This document shows positions 1,503 to 15,816 of a stretch of DNA of 15,816 nt, piece by piece (positions within the stretch are counted from its first letter, which is position 1; every line of letters begins with the position of its first letter). The DNA is from Chloroflexota bacterium. GTDB taxonomy: Bacteria > Chloroflexota > Limnocylindria > Limnocylindrales > CSP1-4. The stretch is taken from the NCBI GenBank assembly GCA_021785115.1, contig JAJYGO010000391.1, forward strand, positions 1 through 15,816, written 5' to 3'. The position numbers were made by a program, and so were the translations under genes. The notes beneath the pieces are model-generated. The model had not been told where the DNA came from. It saw nothing but the letters and a program-made list of their open reading frames with translations, and ran no database searches.

Positions 1503-1518
1503 TATGCTCCGCCGCATG
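1503..1518 (+). promoter_or_regulatory. -10-like box 7 nt before the regulator ATG (leaderless start)
   Basis: TATGCT at 1503-1508 is followed by 7 nt and then ATG at 1516. This spacing would put the transcription start on or next to the start codon. No Shine-Dalgarno precedes either candidate ATG (1504 or 1516), which fits a leaderless mRNA. No -35 consensus is visible 17 nt upstream, so confidence is limited. Confidence 0.35.
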
Positions 1519-2187
1519 GACGGAGGGACCACCGGGACGTTGCCGCCAGAGCCCGACGGCGGGTCGCTCGCAGCAGCGTTTCGCGACGGGCGCCGGCTGC
1601 GCCTGCGAGTCGGGACGACCCTGATGGCGGAGGGCGACGCCTCGAGGCGCGTGATCCTGCTGCTCTCGGGCCGCGTGAAGGTCTCCACGCTCTCGGCCGA
1701 CGGCCAGGAGACCGTTCTCGCGTTCCGGGGAGCCGGCGACATTCTCGGCGAGCTCGCAGCGATCGACGGTGAGGACCACATGGCGACCGTGACCGTGGTC
1801 GAGGAGGGCACCGCGCTTGCCGTGACGGCCGAGAGGTTCCTGGCCGCGCTGGAGACCGAGCCTGGCCTGGCGGTTATCCTGCTGCGCTCGGTGATCGGCC
1901 GGCTCCGCACGGCCGACCGGATGCGGACGGAGTACGTGGCGCTCGACGTGGCCGGGCGCGTGGCGAAGCGGCTCGTGGACCTCGCCTCGGCCTACGGGCA
2001 GCCGACGGACGGCGGGACTCGGATCGGGCTGCAGCTGTCCCAGCGCGAGCTGGCGGGCTGGGTCGGCGCCTCTCGCGAAGCCGTGAACAAGGCGCTCGCG
2101 CAGTTCGAGGCGCGGGGGCTCATCGCCCGTGACCACGGGACGCTCATCGTGCGTGACGAAGACGGGCTGCGGCGGCGGGCGAGCTGA
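1516..2187 (+). CDS. Crp/Fnr-family transcriptional regulator
   Basis: A 223-residue protein of the usual length for the family. Residues about 20-125 form the cyclic-nucleotide-binding beta-roll, with the conserved GEL at 78-80. Residues 174-203 (LSQRELAGWVGASREAVNKA, then LAQFEARGLI) are the Crp-type winged helix-turn-helix that contacts DNA. The phosphate-binding cassette is not canonical: where CRP has Arg-Ser (R82/S83 in E. coli), this protein has His-Met (H88/M89), so cAMP binding in the usual way is doubtful. No Fnr-type cysteine cluster is present. The start at 1516 is preferred to the in-frame ATG at 1504, which overlaps a -10-like TATGCT box. It is divergent from the small gene at 1346 and convergent with an MFS-cNMP fusion; either could be a target, but that is inference. 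Confidence 0.9.
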   Translation: MDGGTTGTLPPEPDGGSLAAAFRDGRRLRLRVGTTLMAEGDASRRVILLLSGRVKVSTLSADGQETVLAFRGAGDILGELAAIDGEDHMATVTVVEEGTALAVTAERFLAALETEPGLAVILLRSVIGRLRTADRMRTEYVALDVAGRVAKRLVDLASAYGQPTDGGTRIGLQLSQRELAGWVGASREAVNKALAQFEARGLIARDHGTLIVRDEDGLRRRAS

Positions 2188-2282: not shown

Positions 2283-3917
2283 TCAGACCTCCTCGGCCAG
2301 CCTCCGGTCCGCCAGGCTCTCCGCGGCGACACGCGACTGCGGGTGGCCCGTGACAGCTTCGAGGAACGGATCGCGGTCGAGCGCGTAGAGCACCAGGGGC
2401 GTCGTGGCCAGCACCGTGGCGGTGCGCGGCACGTCCCGGAGGAGCGCGATCTCGCCGAGGACGTCAGGGCCGCTGCGAGCGGCGATGTGGCGCCCCTGGC
2501 GCACCACGTCCACGCCACCCTCGGCCAGGATGTAGAGACGGTCTCCCCGCGCGCCCTCGCGGATCAGCGTCGCGCCGGCCGGCAGCTCCAGGCGCTCCAG
2601 GCTGGCCATGACCCGCTCCATGGCCGGCGGCGGCAGCGGCGCGAAGATCGGCAGCGACCGGGCCAGCGCGAGCAGGCCGGGATCCGGGACGTGCGCGCCG
2701 CGCTCGACCGCCCGCAGCGGACGCCACAGCAGGGCCACGACCAGCGGGACGAGGGCCCCGGCGGCCAGCAGCGCCGCGGCGATCCCCACGGAGGCCACGA
2801 GCGCCGACGCGACGACGCTGCCGAGGGCGAGCGAGACCATGGTGAGGCTCTCGAGCACGCCGAACACGCGGGCCATCGCGGCGGGCGGTGCGGCGCGCTG
2901 GAGCAGCGTGTTGCCCGCGACCGACGCGACGCTCCGGCCGACGCCGGTGAGGCCAATCAGCAGCGGCGCCGTCGTCAGGGTCGGCAGCGCCCCGAGGGCG
3001 GCGACGGGTCCGCCGAACAGCGCCGACCCGGCGGCCAGCGCTGGCGTGAGGCGGCGCCGTCCGGCCAGCGACACCGCGAGGCCGGCGCCCGCGATCCCGC
3101 CCAGCCCCAAGGCGGCATTGAGGTACCCGGCCCAGCCCTGGCCGGCGTGCAGCAGGTCGATCGCGGCGGCAACCAGCAGCACGTCCAGGGCACCCACCAC
3201 CACGAACATCGTGGCCAGCACCGCGATCGGCAGCCGGACGGCGGGCTCTGCCCGGAGCACCGCGAATCCGTGGAGGACCTCGCCCAGCACGGCGCGCGCA
3301 GTGAGCGGGTGCTCCGGGCCGGCCCCCGACGCGACGCGGACCTCGACGATCTGTGCCGCCGCCACGGTCAGGATCGCGCCGAACGCCGCCAGCGCGGCGG
3401 CGGGTCCGGACGCCGACAGCAGCGCGCCGGCGACGAACGGCCCCAGCAGCATGCCCAGCCCGTCGGCCAGGCCCGACACCGCGTTGGCCCCGGTGAGGGC
3501 CGCGACCGATTCGGTGACGTCGGGCAGCACCGCGAAGTGCGTGGGCCGCGTGAAGGTGATCGACGCGGAGTTCGCGGCCGCGATCGTCAGCACGAGGGCG
3601 GGCGCGGCGCCGACCACGAGGGCGGCCGACGTCGCGAGCAGCGTCACCGCCTGGACGACGTACGCGACCAGCAGCACGCGGCCGCGCGGGAACCGGTCGC
3701 CGGCGAAGGCGCCGAGCGGCGCGGCGAGCGCGGACGGGACCATCTGGGCCACGGCCACCAGCGCCGCGAACGGCGCTCCACCCAGCCCGTACGCGTAGAC
3801 GAGCAGGACGACCCAGACGCCGTACTCGGCCACCGCGAAGCCGAGGAAGGCGGTGACGAGCAGGCGCTGTCGGCGGTCGCGGAGCACGCCGCCAACGGTC
3901 GTGAGCCAGGTGGACAT
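2283..3917 (-). CDS. MFS transporter with fused C-terminal cyclic-nucleotide-binding-type domain
   Basis: A 544-residue fusion. Residues about 15-405 form a major facilitator superfamily permease with 10-12 hydrophobic segments, resembling the MFS_1/MFS_3 drug-export-like group; the loop GDRFPRGR matches MFS motif A. Residues about 425-530 form a Crp-type cyclic-nucleotide-binding roll, starting 'LARSLPIFAPLPPPAMERVM' and containing GEIALLRDVPRTATV at 488-502. That stretch is a canonical phosphate-binding cassette, with Glu489 and Arg498 placed as in functional cAMP/cGMP sites. No HTH follows, so it should gate transport or sense rather than bind DNA. The ATG at 3917 has no Shine-Dalgarno. 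The gene lies downstream of the permease at 4101 after a 183-nt gap holding a structured repeat, and converges on a Crp/Fnr regulator. Substrate unknown. Confidence 0.9.
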   Translation of the reverse strand: MSTWLTTVGGVLRDRRQRLLVTAFLGFAVAEYGVWVVLLVYAYGLGGAPFAALVAVAQMVPSALAAPLGAFAGDRFPRGRVLLVAYVVQAVTLLATSAALVVGAAPALVLTIAAANSASITFTRPTHFAVLPDVTESVAALTGANAVSGLADGLGMLLGPFVAGALLSASGPAAALAAFGAILTVAAAQIVEVRVASGAGPEHPLTARAVLGEVLHGFAVLRAEPAVRLPIAVLATMFVVVGALDVLLVAAAIDLLHAGQGWAGYLNAALGLGGIAGAGLAVSLAGRRRLTPALAAGSALFGGPVAALGALPTLTTAPLLIGLTGVGRSVASVAGNTLLQRAAPPAAMARVFGVLESLTMVSLALGSVVASALVASVGIAAALLAAGALVPLVVALLWRPLRAVERGAHVPDPGLLALARSLPIFAPLPPPAMERVMASLERLELPAGATLIREGARGDRLYILAEGGVDVVRQGRHIAARSGPDVLGEIALLRDVPRTATVLATTPLVLYALDRDPFLEAVTGHPQSRVAAESLADRRLAEEV

Positions 3918-8343: not shown

Positions 8344-8994
8344 TCAGCCCTCGACCGGCTGCGACACCGCCAGCAGCAGCAGCGGCAGCACCGAGCGCGC
8401 CATCGCGTCGGGGTCGGAGCCGCCGCCCTGGAGGAGCGCCCGGCGCACGGACCGCTCCACGATGGCCACCGCGGCGTCGGCGACGTCCGCGGCGGGGATC
8501 AGCAGCTCGCGGCCCCGGAACGCCGTGCCCCGCTCGATGAACTCCGCGATCCGGGCGCGGAAGCGCAGGTCGGCGTCGCGGAACGAGCGCGAGACGTCGG
8601 GCTGGCGGATGGCGTTGATCTCGAGCTCCGTCTGGAGCATCGCCACCTGCCGGTCCACCGGGACGGCCGAGAGGATCCGCTCGATCACCGGGGCCATGCT
8701 GCCCAGGTCGTCGGGGGCGCCGTCGCCCATCTCGGCGAGCGTCAGCGCGAGGTTCGCGTCCAGGTAGGCGATGACGCGCGCGTGCTCGCGGGCCACCAGC
8801 GCGTCCACCAGGTCCGCCTTGTCGGTGAAGTTCGAGTAGAAGGCGCCGCGGGTGAAGCCCGCCCGCTCGCAGATGTCCTCGACCGACGAGCCGATGACCC
8901 CCCGCTCCGCGAACACGGCCAGCGCCGCGTCCAGGACCCGCTCGCGCGTGGCCTCGCGCCGGGCCGTCCGCGCACGCTCCGTCGTCTCGGTCAC
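8344..8994 (-). CDS. TetR/AcrR-family transcriptional repressor
   Basis: 216 residues from a GTG at 8994. The N-terminal DNA-binding domain is typical: helix 1 RERVLDAALAVFAERG (17-32), then the helix-turn-helix SSVEDICERAGFTRGAFYSN (36-55) ending in the usual 'FYxxFxxKxxL' pattern. Residues about 75-216 form the helical ligand-binding and dimerisation domain, whose sequence is not conserved enough to predict a ligand. Members usually repress a divergent or adjacent exporter. Here the gene is back-to-back with the MMPL-YhgE fusion, 145 nt between start codons, with a palindrome cluster between them. An upstream ATG on the minus strand near 9018 is out of frame. No Shine-Dalgarno is clear at 8994. 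The sensor-like membrane protein follows on the same strand. Confidence 0.93.
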   Translation of the reverse strand: MTETTERARTARREATRERVLDAALAVFAERGVIGSSVEDICERAGFTRGAFYSNFTDKADLVDALVAREHARVIAYLDANLALTLAEMGDGAPDDLGSMAPVIERILSAVPVDRQVAMLQTELEINAIRQPDVSRSFRDADLRFRARIAEFIERGTAFRGRELLIPAADVADAAVAIVERSVRRALLQGGGSDPDAMARSVLPLLLLAVSQPVEG

Positions 8995-9005
8995 CCGTCG
9001 AACCT

Positions 9006-9058
9006 CGATACGGTCATGTATTCGATACGTTGACGTATCCGATACACCTTCGTATCCT
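9006..9058 (+). promoter_or_regulatory. TetR operator palindrome overlapping the promoter of the MMPL-YhgE gene
   Basis: GTATTCGATACGT (9018-9030) and ACGTATCCGATAC (9033-9045) form a 28-bp imperfect palindrome with a 2-nt centre, 11 of 13 pairs matching. Further CGATAC and CGTATC units flank it at 9006-9011 and 9051-9056. The plus-strand promoter TTGACG (9030-9035), 17-nt spacer, TATCCT (9053-9058) overlaps it and would start transcription near 9065. The layout is that of a TetR repressor blocking the divergent exporter gene and probably its own. Confidence 0.7.
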
Positions 9059-9129: not shown

Positions 9130-9136
9130 GGAGGAG
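9130..9136 (+). promoter_or_regulatory. Ribosome-binding site deciding the start of the fusion gene
   Basis: GGAGGAG at 9130-9136 is followed by ATC and then GTG at 9140. It separates the true start from the open frame that continues far upstream through the promoter and antisense to the TetR gene. An in-frame TTG at 9128 overlaps this site and is less likely. Confidence 0.7.
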
Positions 9137-9139
9137 ATC

Positions 9140-12100
9140 GTGTTCGAAGCCCTGGGCTCGAAGACCTACAAGCTGCGCTTCCTGATCGTCGTGGTGTGGG
9201 TCCTCGCGGTCATCGCCTCGGTCAAGCTGGCCCCGTCGCTGGCCGGCGAGGCCGCCTCCGACCAGTCCGCGTTCCTGCCCCCGGACGCCCCCTCGATGCT
9301 GGCCAACGACGCCATCGAGAAGGCGTTCCCGGGCTCCACCTCCTCCAGCTCCGCCACCCTGACCTTCTCGCGCGACTCGGGGCTCACCGCGAGTGACATC
9401 GCCTACATCGACTCGACCGCGGCATGGGTCACCAGCAGCGCCGCGCCCGCCGACCTGCGCAGCGCCGTCACCGGCACGGCCACGGCCGCCTCCCGCCCGG
9501 AGCTCGCCTCGATGCTCAAGAGCTCGGACGGCCAGCTCCAGCTGCTGCTCGTGGACCTCAACGTCAGCTCGGCCGGCGACCAGGCGGCGACCGTGGTCGG
9601 CGACCTCCGCAACTACGTCCCCGCCCACGCACCGGCGGGCCTGGCGGTCCACGTGACGGGCACCGCGGGGATCACCAGCGACTACCTCGCGGCGGTCAAG
9701 TCCGGCACCGACAGCACGACGCGGGTCACGATCATCCTGGTCCTCGCCATCCTGCTGCTCATCTACCGGGCCCCCCTCGCGGCCATGGTCCCGCTGGTCA
9801 CCATCGGCGGCGCCTACGTGGTCGCGCGCGGCGTGCTGGGCATCCTCGCGGCCGCCGGCTGGAAGATCACCTCGCTGCTGGACACGTTCCTCGTGGTCAT
9901 GGTGTTCGGGGTGGGGACCGACTACGCGATCTTCCTGATCAGCCGCTTCCGCGAGGAGATCAGCGGCGGGACGGACTGGCACGACGCATCGCGGGAGACC
10001 GTCCGGCGGATCGGCGCCGTCATCTCCGCCTCGGCGGCGACGGTCATCGTGGGCCTGGGCGCGATGGCGTTCGGCAACTTCGAGATGATCAAGACCACCG
10101 GCCCGGCCCTGGCGGTCGCCATCGCCGTGACGCTGGTCGCCGGCCTCACCCTGGCGCCGGCCCTGCTCGGCATCTTCGGGCACTACCTGTTCTGGCCGCT
10201 GCACACGCGGCCCGCGCAGGAGGGCGAGCCCGGCGGCTTCTTCGCCAGGCTGGCCGCCGCCGTGTCGCGGCACCCGGGCCTGGTCGCGATCGCCCTCGTG
10301 GTGGCGCTCGGGCTGCCGGCGACGTTCGTGCCCCAGATGAAGACCAACTTCGACACGCTGGCCGAGCTGCCCGCCAGCTCCGACGCCCGCCAGGGCTTCG
10401 ACATCATCGCGGCGCACCTGGGCAAGGGCAAGCTGGTCCAGTCCACCGCCCTGATCACCACCGGCTCGGGCGACGTGCTGGCCCCCGCGGACCTGGCCCG
10501 CCTGCGCGACACCGTGGTGGCGCTCCAGCACAGCGCCGGGGTGTCCTCGGTAACGAGCCTGGTCACGCCCGACGGCGACGGCAAGGTGCCCGACGGCTTC
10601 CGCCCGTCGATCCAGCTGGGGACCATCGGCGACGCGTTCTCGGCCAACTCCACCTCCTCGTCCTCCTCCGCGGCAGCGGCCAGCGGCTCCAGCAGCTCGC
10701 TGCTCGACCCCAAGCTGACCGACGGCCTGGACCAGGCGCTCAACTACGTGGGCGCGCTGGGCGCCGCCTATCCGGACGTCGCCGGCCGCTCCGAGTACCG
10801 GGCGGCGCGGCAGTCGATCACCGACGCGCTCGACCTGGTGGCGCGGGTCAAGAAGCAGAGCGTCGTGGCCACCCAGCTGCGCACGCTCGCGGCGGCCCTC
10901 ACGGCCCCCAGCTCGGCGGCCGGCGGCGGCGGCGACAGCTCGCTGATGGCGAACTACCTGGCCGAGCTCGCGACCGCGTATCCCGAGGTCCGCCCGCTCC
11001 CCGCCTACCAAGACGCCGTCAAGGCGGCGGCCTCGCTCGCGTCCAAGCCGACGGCGACGGCCGCGGTGGACACGGCCGACGCGATGAACCAGCTCGCGGT
11101 CCACTTCGACAGCCAGCCCAACGACACGCTGTCCCCGCAGAGCCTCGCCAACACGCCGTCCGCGCTGGAGCTCAAGACCGAGGCCAAGACGACGTTCGCG
11201 GCGATCCCGACCGCGTTCCACGGCCTGGCGAGCGTGTTCGCGGCGCGCCCGGACGACATCTTCGTCCCGGTGGGCCTGGGCGGCGACAACGCCCAGCAGC
11301 TCACCGACGCCGTGAACGCCTTCGTATCCGCCGACCACACCGCGACCCGGTTCTACGTGGTCACGACCGACGACCCGTACTCGGAGGCGGCGTTCACCAC
11401 GATCCGCAACACGCAGGCGGCGCTGGCGGCGGCCGCGCCCTCGTTCGGCCCGGGTGCGACGGCCTACCTCGGCGGCGCCACGGCGCAGTTCTCCGACGTC
11501 CAGACCGTCCTCTCGAACGACTTCACGCGGGTCGGCGTCATCACCGTGATCGGCATCTTCCTGGTGCTGATGCTCCTGCTGCGGGCGATGGTGGCGCCGC
11601 TGTACCTGGTGGGCACGGTGCTGCTCTCGTACCTGTCCGCGGTGGGCCTGTCGGCGTTCCTGTTCCAGAACGTGCTGCACCACGCCGGCATCAGCTTCTA
11701 CCTGCCGCTGATGGTGTTCGTGCTGCTGGTGGCGCTGGGCTCCGACTACAACATCTTCCTGATGAGCCGGGTGCGCGAGGAGAGCGAGACGCGGCCGATC
11801 CGGGACGGCATCCGGATCGCGTCGGGCCACACCGGCTCGGTGATCACGTCGGCCGGCCTGATCCTGGCCGGCACGTTCGGCTCGATGGCCACCGCCCCGC
11901 TGATCGTCCTGTTCCAGGTGGGCGTCGCCGTCGCGATCGGCGTGCTCATCGACACCTTCGTCGTCCGCTCCATCCTGGTGCCCGCCATCACGACCATCGC
12001 GGGCGACCGCACCTGGTGGCCGTCCGGGATCCGCCTGGGCGCCCTGGCGCCCGCGGTCGCGGGGGCCGCCGGTGAGCCCGGGCTGGGCGAGGCCGCGCTG

Positions 12101-14758
12101 GCGGCGGCGACCGCGAACGAGGCCGCCGGGGCAGCGGCCGATGCCGGGCCGGGGACGGGCGCGCGCCCGACGCCGGCCGCCGGCCGCGGGCACCGCAGGC
12201 TGCTGCGGGCGCTGGTCGCCCTGGGGCTCGCGGTCCTCGTCCCGGTCACCCTGGCCGGCGTGGCGACGTGGGCCTGGCAGCCGCAGGCCGGGGCGGTCAC
12301 GTTCCAGGCCGCGGTGGTCAACCTTGACCAGGGCGCCACGGTCACCGCCGGCGACGGCACGACCCAGACCCTGGCCCTGGGCAAGGAGGTCAGCGACGGG
12401 CTCGTCTCGGGCGGCGCGAGCGCCACCGGCGCCGGCACGCCCGGATCGGCCGGCTCATCGGTGGCCTGGACCGCCACGGACGCGCAGGCCGCCGCCGACG
12501 GCCTCGCGTCGGGGGCCTACGCCGCGGTGCTGACGATCCCCGCCGACTTCTCGAGGTCCATCGCGGCCATCCGCGCGGGCACCTCGGGCGACACGCCGTC
12601 GGCCACGCTGCAGCTCGAGACCGGCTCGGGCGGCGGCAACGTGGCCACCGCCGTCGCGCGGTCCGTGAGCACTGCCATCACCGCGTCCGCCACGCGCGAC
12701 GCGACCGCCTCGTACGTCGCGAACGTGCTGCTCGCCGTGTCCACGGCCCAGTCGAGCGTGACCTCGGCCGCGAACTCCGCGCAGGGCGTGGCCTCGAGCG
12801 CCAGCAGCCTCGCCGACAACGCGAGCGGGGTGCGCACGGTCTCGGGCGAGCTCGTCACGGGCCTCGGCCAGATGGCGTCGGGGGTGTCGTCGTCGATCAG
12901 CGGCGCCCAGCAGCTCGCCAGCGGCACGGCCTCGCTCGCCAGCGGCGCCAAGCAGCTGGCCACGGGCGCCGCCTCGCTCGCGTCGGGCACCCACCAGAGC
13001 GCGGCCGGCGCCTCGTCGCTCGCGGCCGGCGCGTCGTCGCTGTCCGACGGGCTGGCGAAGCTCGACAGCCAGACCCAGGCGCTCCCCTCGCAGGCGGCGC
13101 AGCTGGCGTCCGGGGCGTCGGACGTGGCCTCGGGCGCGAGCCAGACGGCAGCCGGCGCGGCGTCGCTCGCGTCGGGGCTCCAGACGCTCGCCGCCAGCAC
13201 GGCCGGCCTGGGGACCCAGGCCCAGCAGCTCAAGGCCGGGGCGGACGGCGTGGCGACCGGCACCTCGTCGGTGGCGGCGGGCCTCAGCCAGCTGGTCGCG
13301 CCCGCGACGAGCCTGTCGAGCGGGGCGGGCGACCTCGCCGCCGGCGTCGGGGCGTACACCGGGGCGCTCGGCCAGATCGCGTCCACCTGCATCGCCGACG
13401 GCGGCGGGCCGCTCGTCTGCGGCGAGCTCGAGAGCCTGATCGGGGGCACGCTCGCCATCCCGGGCCAGGGCACGGTCCCCGGCTCGGCGACGCTCCAGGC
13501 GGGTGCGACCTCGGTCGCGGGCGGCTCGGCCGGCGTCCTCTCGGCCGTCAAGACGCTGGCGGCCGGCGCGGCGCAGACGAGCGGCGGGGCGTCCCAGCTC
13601 GACGCCGGGATCACGCAGTTCGCCGCCGGCGCGCCGGCCCTCCAGTCCGGCATCGCGCAGGCGGCGTCGGGCTCGGCGACCCTGGCGTCCGGCGCCGCCC
13701 AGCTGTCGAGCGGCGCGGCGCAGCTCGCCGGCGGCACGCAGCAGCTGTCGGCCGGCCTGCCGCAGCTCGCCTCGGGGGTGGCGCAGCTCGCCTCCGGCGC
13801 GTCCGGGGTGTCGTCGGGCGCATCCTCGCTCTCGAGCGGCATCGCGGCGCTCGCGTCGGGCGCCGACAAGCTCGCGTCGGGCGCCCAGCAGACCGCCAGC
13901 GGCGCCGCCCAGATCGCGTCCGGGACGAAGTCGGCCGCCAGCAGCGCGAGCCAGCTCTCCAGCGCGGTCAACCAGGTACTCGACGGGGCCAAGCTCGTCC
14001 AGGCCGAGACCGGCCAGCTGGCCACCGACGGCAAGTCGCTGTCGGGCGACGCCGCCAAGGTCTCCGACTCGCTGACCGCGACCGCGGGCTCGATGCCCGT
14101 CCACGCGACGGCGGACCGCTCGCAGGTGGCCGCCCGGATCGCGGACCCGGTGACGGTGGAGACCGCGTCCACCGCACCGGTGGACGCCGGCATCGCGCCG
14201 CTCGCGATGGCGATCGCCCTGTGGCTCGGCGCCCTCGCCGCGCTGCTGGCGGTGCCCGCGCTGGGCCGCGACCGGCGGCGCTGGTGGGCCGGCCCGGTGG
14301 GCGCGATGGGGCTGGCCGCCCTCGTGGGGCTGGTCGCCGCCGCGCTCATGGTGGCGGGGATCCGCCTGGGCGTCGGCCTCGACGCGGCCCGCCTGCCGCT
14401 GCTGCTGGGGCTGAGCGCCCTGACCGCGGTGGCGTTCGCGGCCGTGCTGGGCGCGCTCGTGGCCGCGTTCGGGATCCGGGGCTGGGTGGCGGGCCTGCTG
14501 CTGGCCGGCCTCGGCATCGGCGCCTCGGGCTACCCGTTCGGCGTGGACGCGCTGCCGGGGCCGCTGTCGATCATCCGGCCGGTCCTGCCGACCTCCTGGG
14601 CGATCGACGGCATCCGGGCGGCCATCGAGAGCGCCAGCTCGTCGGTGGCGGTGGACGCGGCGGTGCTGGGCGCGTGGCTGATCCTGGGCGTGCTGGTGGT
14701 GCTGGCGGTGACCGCTGGCGCGGCGAGGCGCCGCGAGGAGCAGCCGGCCGCGGCGTGA
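9140..14758 (+). CDS. MMPL/RND transporter fused to a YhgE/Pip (EsaA-like) heptad-repeat membrane protein
   Basis: 1872 residues in one uninterrupted frame. Residues 1-965 are a full MMPL transporter: helix at 13-28, outside loop, helices at about 195-350, helix at about 380-397, large second loop (400-795), then helices at about 797-955 ending DTFVVRSILVPA and DRTWWPS, both typical MMPL endings. Asp261-Tyr262 (GVGTDYAIF) and Asp869-Tyr870 (GSDYNIF) match the two proton-relay Asp-Tyr pairs of MmpL3. Residues 966-1018 are an Ala/Gly/Pro linker. Residues 1018-1872 are a full YhgE/Pip protein: helix at 1021-1045, AAVVNLDQGATV (1056-1067), WTATDAQAAADGLASG from 1110, IPADFS near 1135, 'xxxLASG' heptads over about 1234-1620, then five helices (1685-1860) including 'PFGVDALPGPLS' and 'VLPTSWAIDGIR'. 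The topology of the two halves is compatible. The start is set by GGAGGAG before the GTG. Likely repressed by the divergent TetR. Substrate unknown. Confidence 0.92.
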   Translation: MFEALGSKTYKLRFLIVVVWVLAVIASVKLAPSLAGEAASDQSAFLPPDAPSMLANDAIEKAFPGSTSSSSATLTFSRDSGLTASDIAYIDSTAAWVTSSAAPADLRSAVTGTATAASRPELASMLKSSDGQLQLLLVDLNVSSAGDQAATVVGDLRNYVPAHAPAGLAVHVTGTAGITSDYLAAVKSGTDSTTRVTIILVLAILLLIYRAPLAAMVPLVTIGGAYVVARGVLGILAAAGWKITSLLDTFLVVMVFGVGTDYAIFLISRFREEISGGTDWHDASRETVRRIGAVISASAATVIVGLGAMAFGNFEMIKTTGPALAVAIAVTLVAGLTLAPALLGIFGHYLFWPLHTRPAQEGEPGGFFARLAAAVSRHPGLVAIALVVALGLPATFVPQMKTNFDTLAELPASSDARQGFDIIAAHLGKGKLVQSTALITTGSGDVLAPADLARLRDTVVALQHSAGVSSVTSLVTPDGDGKVPDGFRPSIQLGTIGDAFSANSTSSSSSAAAASGSSSSLLDPKLTDGLDQALNYVGALGAAYPDVAGRSEYRAARQSITDALDLVARVKKQSVVATQLRTLAAALTAPSSAAGGGGDSSLMANYLAELATAYPEVRPLPAYQDAVKAAASLASKPTATAAVDTADAMNQLAVHFDSQPNDTLSPQSLANTPSALELKTEAKTTFAAIPTAFHGLASVFAARPDDIFVPVGLGGDNAQQLTDAVNAFVSADHTATRFYVVTTDDPYSEAAFTTIRNTQAALAAAAPSFGPGATAYLGGATAQFSDVQTVLSNDFTRVGVITVIGIFLVLMLLLRAMVAPLYLVGTVLLSYLSAVGLSAFLFQNVLHHAGISFYLPLMVFVLLVALGSDYNIFLMSRVREESETRPIRDGIRIASGHTGSVITSAGLILAGTFGSMATAPLIVLFQVGVAVAIGVLIDTFVVRSILVPAITTIAGDRTWWPSGIRLGALAPAVAGAAGEPGLGEAALAAATANEAAGAAADAGPGTGARPTPAAGRGHRRLLRALVALGLAVLVPVTLAGVATWAWQPQAGAVTFQAAVVNLDQGATVTAGDGTTQTLALGKEVSDGLVSGGASATGAGTPGSAGSSVAWTATDAQAAADGLASGAYAAVLTIPADFSRSIAAIRAGTSGDTPSATLQLETGSGGGNVATAVARSVSTAITASATRDATASYVANVLLAVSTAQSSVTSAANSAQGVASSASSLADNASGVRTVSGELVTGLGQMASGVSSSISGAQQLASGTASLASGAKQLATGAASLASGTHQSAAGASSLAAGASSLSDGLAKLDSQTQALPSQAAQLASGASDVASGASQTAAGAASLASGLQTLAASTAGLGTQAQQLKAGADGVATGTSSVAAGLSQLVAPATSLSSGAGDLAAGVGAYTGALGQIASTCIADGGGPLVCGELESLIGGTLAIPGQGTVPGSATLQAGATSVAGGSAGVLSAVKTLAAGAAQTSGGASQLDAGITQFAAGAPALQSGIAQAASGSATLASGAAQLSSGAAQLAGGTQQLSAGLPQLASGVAQLASGASGVSSGASSLSSGIAALASGADKLASGAQQTASGAAQIASGTKSAASSASQLSSAVNQVLDGAKLVQAETGQLATDGKSLSGDAAKVSDSLTATAGSMPVHATADRSQVAARIADPVTVETASTAPVDAGIAPLAMAIALWLGALAALLAVPALGRDRRRWWAGPVGAMGLAALVGLVAAALMVAGIRLGVGLDAARLPLLLGLSALTAVAFAAVLGALVAAFGIRGWVAGLLLAGLGIGASGYPFGVDALPGPLSIIRPVLPTSWAIDGIRAAIESASSSVAVDAAVLGAWLILGVLVVLAVTAGAARRREEQPAAA

Positions 14759-14882: not shown

Positions 14883-15653
14883 CTAGTTGCGGCGGTCGGC
14901 GAGGTTCCGGCGGTCGGGCACGTACAGCCCGAGCCGCTGGTGGAGCAGGTCGAGCTCGCGCCGCAGCAGCCCGTCGAGGTCGCGCAGGCGGTCCTCGGCC
15001 GTGGGCGCCTCCAGCAGCGCCTGCTTGCGGTCCAGCTCCGCCTGGACGATGCCGGTGAGCAGGAACGACAGCGGGGACGGGTCCTCGGGCACGCGGAGCG
15101 ACTCGAGGGTGGGCTCGCGGCCCTCGTCCTCGTCCGCCTCGGCGCGCACCTCCTCGACCGGCTCGCCCTCCACCTCGACCTCCACCTGGACGTCCACCGG
15201 CAGGCCCAGCTCGCCGTCCTTGGGCTGGAGCTCGCGGAGGTACTCGATGAACCGCGACCCCACCCGGTCCACGAGGCGGGCCGCGGCCTCCGGGTCGCCC
15301 ACCTCGTCGGGCAGCGGCTCCACCTCGGCCACGAGGTACGGCTCGGCCTCCGCGTCCACCTCGAGCACGGTGAACCGGCCGGTGCCCACCACCAGCAGGC
15401 TCCAGCGGCCGTCGGCGAACTTGGTCGCCTCGCGGATCTCGGCGAACGTGCCCACGCCGGCGATCGCGAGGTCCGCGCCCTCGCCGGCCCGGGGGGCCAC
15501 CTCGGAGCCCTCGCGGATGAGCACGACGCCGAACGGCGACGACGCGTCGAGGCAGCGGCGGACCATCAGCCGGTAGCGCTCCTCGAACACGTGGAGCGGC
15601 AGCGCGATGCCCGGGGCGAGGACGGTGTGCAGGGGGAAGAGCGGCAGGCGCAC
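14883..15653 (-). CDS. LON peptidase substrate-binding domain protein
   Basis: 256 residues from a GTG at 15653. The N-terminus RLPLFPLHTVLAPGIALPLH, followed by FEERYRLMVRRCL, is the signature opening of the LON substrate-binding (PUA-like) domain, which covers about residues 1-205 and includes GVVLIREGSE and LLVVGTGRF. No AAA+ ATPase or Ser-Lys protease domain follows, so it is a stand-alone relative of the Lon N-domain. Such proteins are widespread, and their function in bacteria is not well established. An acidic insert (VQVEVEVEGEPVEEVRAEAD, then EDEG) lies at about 155-180, with a charged helical C-terminus. The end contains a small duplication (RRNLADRRN). The GTG start agrees with the family start. 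It has no Shine-Dalgarno, and TACTCT lies 6 nt upstream. It converges on the fusion gene, and no functional link is implied. Confidence 0.93.
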   Translation of the reverse strand: MRLPLFPLHTVLAPGIALPLHVFEERYRLMVRRCLDASSPFGVVLIREGSEVAPRAGEGADLAIAGVGTFAEIREATKFADGRWSLLVVGTGRFTVLEVDAEAEPYLVAEVEPLPDEVGDPEAAARLVDRVGSRFIEYLRELQPKDGELGLPVDVQVEVEVEGEPVEEVRAEADEDEGREPTLESLRVPEDPSPLSFLLTGIVQAELDRKQALLEAPTAEDRLRDLDGLLRRELDLLHQRLGLYVPDRRNLADRRN

Positions 15654-15665
15654 GGGACGAGAGTA
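15654..15665 (-). promoter_or_regulatory. -10-like box 6 nt before the LON-domain GTG (leaderless start)
   Basis: On the minus strand TACTCT (15665-15660) is followed by CGTCCC and then GTG. There is no Shine-Dalgarno, so the transcript probably starts at or next to the start codon. No -35 consensus is visible 17 nt upstream. Confidence 0.35.
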
Positions 15666-15687
15666 GGCCGAGGCGCCGGAATCGCGC

Positions 15688-15710
15688 GAGCCGCCGGTGG
15701 CCGGCGGCTC
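15688..15710 (-). terminator. Perfect hairpin behind the right-edge gene fragment
   Basis: GAGCCGCCGG (15688-15697) and CCGGCGGCTC (15701-15710) form a perfect 10-bp stem with loop TGG. It lies about 59 nt beyond the stop of the possible leftward gene fragment at 15769 and before the LON-domain gene promoter, a fitting place for a terminator separating the two. It lacks a T tract. Confidence 0.45.
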
Positions 15711-15768
15711 GGGATCGGCGGATCGAGGTGCGGTCGCGCGGCGGGCGGCCCGCGCGCCGGTCAGGCGG

Positions 15769-15816
15769 TCAGTGGGAGCAGGCGTGCGGCGCGCCGGCGT
15801 CGTCGGCGGTGCGGAA
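15769..15816 (-). CDS. Possible C-terminal end of a leftward gene (partial)
   Basis: The frame entering from the right edge encodes FRTADDAGAPHACSH and then TGA at 15771-15769. The Cys-x-His ending and ordinary residue mix look more protein-like than the other frames, and a perfect hairpin follows the stop. Fifteen residues are too few to name a family, and this could be chance in GC-rich DNA where open frames are common. Confidence 0.3.
   Translation of the reverse strand, partial: FRTADDAGAPHACSH

Follow-up and report, generated by a model that had tools for sequence, protein, structure and literature searches.

The stretch of DNA analysed here (hereafter the window: positions 1 to 15,816 of contig JAJYGO010000391.1, assembly GCA_021785115.1, from a Chloroflexota bacterium) carries on its forward strand a single gene, at 9140-14758 with its stop codon, whose 1872-residue product joins a complete transporter of the MMPL family, of the resistance-nodulation-division (RND) type, to a complete YhgE/Pip-type protein. 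This fused architecture is a conserved, lineage-restricted family and not a single occurrence. Our favoured explanation, to which we give about an even chance, is a TetR-controlled single-chain exporter of one Chloroflexota family, in which an MmpL4/5-like RND half is joined to a permease of the ABC-2 type (ABC, ATP-binding cassette) that has a long ectodomain and no nucleotide-binding domain (NBD). Taken alone, the fusion is a new and conserved variation on two known families; of greater interest is the partnership of an RND pump with an ABC-2-type partner whose ATPase is disappearing.

Starting at a GTG codon, the frame runs for 1872 codons without interruption; a Shine-Dalgarno-like GGAGGAG lies just 5′ of the start (9130-9136, as read from the sequence), and most full-length relatives share this start (MFE/VFE). 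As the first-pass annotation of this DNA had described, the one frame contains both families in full. Two stretches match MMPL (Pfam PF03176; E 3e-114, 381.9 bits against a curated cut-off of 20.5), and the NCBIfam models TIGR00833 (actII/MmpL subfamily; residues 13-961, 485.4 against 874.7 bits), TIGR03061 (YhgE/Pip N-terminal; 1025-1196, 62.3 against 96.15 bits) and TIGR03062 (YhgE/Pip C-terminal; 1666-1857, 89.9 against 102.2 bits) follow in order. Since the actII model and both YhgE models remain below their curated cut-offs, the chain is related to each but divergent; a fused relative in genome G005 passes the TIGR03062 cut-off with 113.9 bits. The MMPL half (residues 1-965, 9140-12034), for which 12 membrane helices are expected from the MmpL fold, is by its sequence a complete MmpL4/5-like transporter. 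Both Asp-Tyr pairs noted at first pass, Asp261-Tyr262 (9920-9925) and Asp869-Tyr870 (11744-11749), one per membrane bundle, align with the DY pairs of M. smegmatis MmpL5, are invariant in a 44-row alignment and presumably act as proton relays, a role known from work on RND proteins and MmpL3.

A cytoplasmic linker rich in Ala, Gly and Pro (residues 966-1016, 12035-12187), predicted to be disordered at a predicted local distance difference test (pLDDT) score <50, leads into the YhgE half. The domain order expected of YhgE/Pip proteins then follows on the same strand, with helices taken from a predicted model: membrane helix 1 (residues 1017-1045, 12188-12274; TIGR03061), a small mixed alpha/beta ectodomain, the VNxD domain, with ‘AVVNLDQG’ (1055-1161, 12302-12622; model and TIGR03061), a long helical xxxLASG heptad coil (about 1166-1651, 12635-14092), and predicted ABC-2/ABCG-like C-terminal membrane helices 2-6 (1686-1867, 14195-14740). 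The long coil ectodomain of the first-pass annotation is recovered as five xxxLxxG stretches (TIGR03057) and as predicted helices of moderate confidence, and its proposal that a cytoplasmic MMPL C-terminus meets a cytoplasmic YhgE N-terminus agrees with the predicted helices. At the predicted turn of the coil, Cys1417-x9-Cys1427 (13388-13420), both invariant in the 44 rows, may form a disulfide. Counting the window's two entries and the protein P0092, 71 of 72 fused proteins have such a C-x(5-14)-C pair, as do 8 of 9 YhgEs of the MMPL-YhgE operons described below, against 8 of the 32 remaining YhgEs at the sampled loci. Overall the prediction for the YhgE half is an ABC-2-type (ABCG/ABCA-like) permease of six helices with its ectodomain between helices 1 and 2, and its model shows the six-helix fold of ABC-2 (type V ABC) permeases. 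No NBD-like match was found in the fused chloroflexot proteins, the window or the fused loci, the rest of the genome not having been searched.

A frameshift or assembly error in the linker had been named at first pass as what could undo the fusion. In the assembly we label G000 (3.45 Mb, 96 contigs, about 92% complete) the fused gene is indeed split inside the linker, over contigs C26 and C20. C26 ends at window position 12132 and C20 starts at 12106, with an overlap of 27 identical bases (12106-12132; this 27-mer occurs once in the window), and there are 2 mismatches between C20 and the window over 3711 bases. The window thus seems to stem from a second assembly of the same organism. The fusion is nevertheless credible, because the identical 1872-residue protein sits on two contigs, the longer of 149,197 bases, and because relatives read through the linker elsewhere. 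A false joining of two adjacent genes, which a break precisely at this place suggests, was rejected on the fused relatives, and we regard it as extremely improbable. Six further genomes have open fused frames, uninterrupted in G002 (1954 codons), G004 (1974), G045 (2082) and G114 (1906) and ended by a contig edge in G005 (1842) and G053 (1805); among the matches listed, fused relatives run in frame on many separate contigs at 37-73% identity over the YhgE part. An apparent adjacent unfused pair in Chloroflexota, P0289 and P0125, was set aside: the end of P0289 resembles a shifted frame, and the two are probably one interrupted fused gene.

The first-pass annotation considered the pairing uncommon as one polypeptide and named an architecture already common and described as the opposing case. 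We found no description of an MMPL-YhgE fusion or operon in the literature, in which coverage of subscription papers was thin, and no experiments on any member of the fused family; related proteins are named ‘MMPL family transporter’ or ‘YhgE/Pip family protein’ in databases. The fusion is nonetheless not a one-off but a conserved feature confined to one family. In our protein searches 120 of 279, 120 of 4327 and 120 of 796 matches were listed. Among the 343 proteins collected, 71 have MMPL-N, MMPL-C, YhgE-N and YhgE-C in order (the window's two entries and P0092 counted in), so that the four-domain chain is present in at least 68 other proteins of the fused family, with 12 more partial. At E <= 1e-6 the YhgE C-terminal domain occurs in 10 of 177 genomes of the window's class, in 4 of 46 genera and a single family; the MMPL-YhgE frame, whole or cut, was seen in nine of these genomes and in the tenth (G000) by way of the window. 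The fused gene occurs in genomes of the window's genus (G001, G002, G005, G009) and of its family (G053). Named records with the fused gene, found by a contig scan with a single peptide pattern, are Chloroflexi metagenome-assembled genomes (L041-L044, L047), and ‘Candidatus Limnocylindrales’ is among the names of matched proteins. A plasmid search returned 226 records with a match, none spanning 80% of the fused protein.

Unfused MMPLs are widespread in the same family: the end of the MMPL half has some MMPL match, at identities down to about one third, in 101 of 107 genomes. Of 20 such regions fetched, two (L112, L113) are fused and 18 are without any YhgE match. Close unfused relatives in genera g7 (L100-L103, L105) and g3 (L104) are 83-86% identical over about the last 110 residues and likewise have no YhgE match nearby. 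Other MMPL matches of about 1281-1483 residues, including P0073 (those named are from Lactobacillus, one from Lactiplantibacillus), show no YhgE match and have a comparable heptad coil set between their two MMPL halves; these Lactobacillus-type MMPLs appear from their sequences to be a different route to a stalk-bearing MMPL pump.

In Actinomycetes the same parts occur as neighbouring genes. L045, the first actinobacterial locus identified by name, encodes MMPL and YhgE in two genes that lie side by side and in different frames. A TIGR03061 search of 148 Actinomycetes genomes, centred on the genome of L045, matched 40 of them; among its 54 matches, the 38 above the cut-off and L085 (two partial matches) were fetched and 14 weaker ones left out. 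Two places in genome G178 (L086, L087) were added to the fetched regions, which number 40 and hold 41 YhgE genes. Nine of the 41 (L076, L077, L079-L083, L085, L086) lie directly behind a same-strand MMPL gene, which supplies the adjacent unfused homologues that the first-pass annotation had suggested looking for; the MMPL frame ends -15 to +6 bases from the start of the YhgE domain match. All nine operon MMPLs end in a C-terminal NBD-like domain at the position occupied by the linker in the fused protein, and Pfam ABC_tran matches those of L076 (4.5e-15) and L080 (3.9e-8). In P0092 of Nigerium massiliense one chain holds MMPL, an NBD remnant (by a custom profile) and YhgE. In one cholesterol study, the available part of which reports 28 genes raised at 24 h, S. 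hirsuta F1721_04135 (YhgE/Pip) and F1721_04140 (MMPL) are among them at 3.82 and 3.33 (PMC9782250); the two have consecutive tags and may form an operon of this type.

The ATPase itself appears to be fading. NBD-like coding lies directly upstream of 40 of the 41 YhgE genes (the exception is L084), with weak matches of 33-44 bits at L061, L062, L064, L066 and L070 to the custom NBD profile; the profile was built from 14 of the NBD-like stretches, so that the matches of those 14 are by construction. Most non-operon YhgE genes sit behind a separate NBD-like gene, and Pfam ABC_tran passes 8 of 10 such genes tested. At these YhgE genes outside MMPL operons (L048-L075, L078, L087) the Walker A Lys of the upstream ABC-ATPase-like gene has mostly been replaced by Arg or is missing. 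Of the 40 NBDs, 4 (L076, L077, L080, L087) keep an intact Walker A (GxxxxGK[ST]), and the motif otherwise often reads GxxGxGRT; a fifth intact row, L087 270-1094, is an ABC gene on the opposite strand and is not counted. LSGGQ was absent from all NBD rows with those columns filled, and a search that strictly required the canonical motifs (Walker A plus LSGGQ-like) returned a single gene, an unrelated one.

A shared regulator also links the two groups of loci. Upstream of the fused gene lies a divergent TetR-family regulator of 216 residues (8344-8994, reverse strand; PF00440, E 5.5e-14), and between the two are three operator-like palindromes, RATAC-N6-GTATY, at 9007-9022, 9024-9039 and 9041-9056, with 17-base spacing. 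The motif has 3 matches in the window and 0 in 200 shuffles, and a perfect tandem palindrome pair occurs at one place in the whole G000 genome. Seven other fused loci have upstream sequence, and six of them carry a TetR relative in the same divergent position (220-354 bits), as do seven of the nine actinobacterial MMPL-YhgE operons (56-130 bits); the best other TetR match in the G000 genome has 35.8 bits. Matches of 16-43 bits in 18 actinobacterial regions, L082 among them, come without the operator and were left uncounted. The motif is present in 22 of 119 loci and absent from the 97 others; these 22 (several of the fused ones being copies of one contig, and L045 and L080 being one contig) are fused loci, the seven TetR-bearing operons, or L065 and L066. 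TetR and operator occur together at seven of the eight fused loci, seven of the nine MMPL-YhgE operons, 2 of 31 other actinobacterial regions and none of the 18 unfused MMPL loci (at two of which, L101 and L103, a contig edge leaves no upstream region visible). The regulator and motif thus accompany the MMPL-YhgE pair in two phyla, and the array is a candidate site for TetR binding.

Taken together, these parts suggest how the exporter could work. The MMPL half would most likely be driven by the proton gradient and would load a lipophilic molecule, such as a lipid, a hydrophobic metabolite or a toxic compound, out of the membrane; the YhgE permease and its coil hairpin of about 480 residues, with the Cys pair at the turn, would take over the molecule and move it outward through the cell wall. 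The first-pass descriptions ‘proton-driven’, which is inferred from residues, and ‘spans the envelope’ may apply. The role of the ABC ATPase would have been dropped, with ATP use ended in the fusion; in most actinobacterial relatives the NBDs are already without an intact Walker A. The divergent TetR would control expression through the GATAC-N6-GTATC array. In some bacteria of another phylum similar parts lie in neighbouring genes, frequently with a related regulator next to them, so that their union looks functional rather than accidental. The S. hirsuta response to cholesterol points, by analogy, in the same direction as export of a lipophilic substrate.

Several known systems resemble parts of this arrangement. 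Among them are mycobacterial MmpL4 and MmpL5, of the siderophore/drug exporters MmpS4L4 and MmpS5L5; in MmpL5 the coil lies within the second periplasmic domain, whereas in the fused protein it is in the C-terminal permease-like module. MmpL5 needs its disulfide-bearing coiled-coil insert, modelled as a 13-nm tube, according to the accessible part of one report (PMC12501195); by analogy this tube may point the same way as outward passage along the YhgE coil. YhgE/Pip and EsaA/YueB proteins (phage infection protein, TC 9.B.74) share the single helix, ‘VNxD’ domain, xxxLxxG coil and C-terminal helices; the fused protein differs in scoring under the curated cut-offs, in standing behind an MMPL and in having no WXG100 match in G000. 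That Pip homologues include proteins of the ABC-2 superfamily is already stated in the literature (PMC3924187). With the ABCA/ABCG (type V) exporters the fused protein shares the predicted six-helix permease fold, and, as in ABCA, whose ectodomain lies between helices 1 and 2, the ectodomain is placed there; it differs in that no NBD was found and the ectodomain is a bacterial heptad coil. The actinobacterial TetR/MMPL-NBD/YhgE operon and P0092 are alike in partners, order and YhgE grouping, and seven of the nine operons share the related TetR and operator motif; they differ in that the partners are encoded by two genes (though joined in one chain in P0092) with an NBD-like domain between them, and in that the MMPL is of another subfamily.

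Some results weigh against the favoured explanation. Confidence in the YhgE-half model is moderate (pLDDT 67.6; predicted template modelling score 0.42), and a plain Foldseek search with it returned nothing at E <= 0.001, only coil and weak ABC-2 matches, with no EsaA or YueB structure among the rows shown. A search of solved-structure sequences with the YhgE half gave 4 weak matches, taken as coil-like chance. Where MmpL5 has its coil, the MMPL half has an insert (residues 482-700) that the model renders as broken helices. The C-x(5-14)-C pair also occurs in 76 of 111 unfused YhgE-type proteins from the protein searches and is not special to MMPL-linked YhgEs. Pfam ABC_tran is absent from 5 of 7 operon MMPLs tested and from P0092; the NBD of the remaining operon MMPLs rests on the custom profile, with the weakest match at L085 (16 bits, E 4e-5). 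One fused locus (L090) and two operons (L082, whose TetR match has only 18.8 bits, and L085) are without both the operator and a TetR match of at least 56 bits. L065 (motif at 8348-8380) and L066 (8231-8246), which have an NBD gene and YhgE without MMPL, carry operator and TetR (91 and 103 bits); the regulator can thus occur without an MMPL partner. In a tree of MMPLs the fused halves form a clade with unfused chloroflexot MMPLs, distant from the operon MMPLs (support 100), which means that the MMPL-YhgE pair was not simply inherited as a unit. Five unfused MMPLs fall inside the fused clade, and the MMPL half may therefore work alone.

The history of the pair is more complex than a single inheritance. 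All trees use hand-picked rows with 10 to 20 fused proteins; both MMPL trees, the subfamily tree taking every third unfused match, and the first YhgE tree were made by a quick method. In a YhgE tree of 56 rows made by a careful method, from which the long-branched L084 was left out, the MMPL-linked YhgEs (15 fused, 9 operon and P0092) split from the 31 YhgEs whose NBD is encoded by a gene of its own (support 100/98); the same split appears in the quick tree, which includes L084, at a weak support of 43. In the second MMPL tree the fused proteins are one clade (100) with the five unfused rows inside and unfused sisters, suggesting that the fusion arose once or a few times and may have been undone. 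One YhgE lineage with two MMPL subfamilies can be read, from these sequences, as partner replacement or double recruitment. That the pairing recurs with different MMPL subfamilies argues for a working partnership.

Other explanations read the YhgE half differently. It could be a mere surface stalk or anchor (scaffold, adhesin-like, wall-positioning) with no part in transport, attached to a normal MMPL exporter for equal dosage and for placement. The coil is its most prominent part, Pip/YueB relatives with their long ectodomains are chiefly known as receptors for phages, YueB forming a fibre, and, among the matches listed, other MMPLs carry a similar coil between their halves without a YhgE match. 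We consider this rather unlikely, since the R, G, W and P columns of the permease helices are invariant in the 44 rows, the sampled actinobacterial relatives keep an NBD-like partner, and the YhgE lineages sort according to partner. The built-in stalk proposed at first pass thus stands as far as the long coil is concerned; the YhgE part goes beyond it, as a predicted ABC-2-like permease with actinobacterial relatives encoded with ABC-ATPase-like domains. Such a permease could instead still be powered by ATP through an NBD encoded elsewhere, with the MMPL as auxiliary loader, and the predicted fold together with the intact Walker A of the four NBDs noted above is in keeping with this. Its probability seems to us distinctly low, given the lack of an NBD-like match in the fused proteins, the window and the flanks of the fused loci (the whole genome was not searched for one), the mostly damaged Walker A of the sister-operon NBDs and their lack of LSGGQ where those columns are filled.

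A place in a type VII-like secretion system, in the role of EsaA/YueB, is very improbable, and the type VII link drawn at first pass fares poorly. It has in its favour a weak match of residues 1054-1219 to TIGR03929 (EsaA), which reaches 33 bits against a cut-off of 122. No WXG100 match was found in G000, EssC and EssB not having been searched for; the neighbours seen are TetR, MMPL and NBD.

A broader reading, which we hold possible though doubtful, extends the single-chain exporter to a hybrid class in which an RND engine replaces the ATPase of a type V (ABC-2) exporter and the pump drives or gates an ABC-type permease with a stalk. The known arrangements would then form a series from ABC ATPase with YhgE, through MMPL-ATPase with YhgE and MMPL-dead-ATPase with YhgE (or the Nigerium chain), to MMPL-YhgE without ATPase. 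RND (proton) and ABC (ATP) exporters are treated as separate mechanisms, and here a conserved chain physically links an RND pump with a permease predicted to be of the ABC type. With relatives whose ATPase is in place, degenerate or missing, it would become possible to test directly how the poorly understood YhgE/Pip/EsaA proteins are energised, and whether these are ABC exporters that have lost or are losing their ATPase. The TetR and its recognisable operator in two phyla offer a regulatory unit for finding inducers and substrates, and a single-chain complex sets the stoichiometry for structural work.

Among the other genes of the window, a 544-residue MFS transporter (2283-3917, reverse strand) has a C-terminal cyclic-nucleotide-binding domain (MFS_1 7.9e-19, cNMP_binding 4.2e-15), with a CRP/FNR-type regulator nearby (1504-2187, forward strand). 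The convergent neighbour of the fused gene (14883-15815, reverse strand), cut by the window end, has a LON substrate-binding domain (PF02190, 4e-33).
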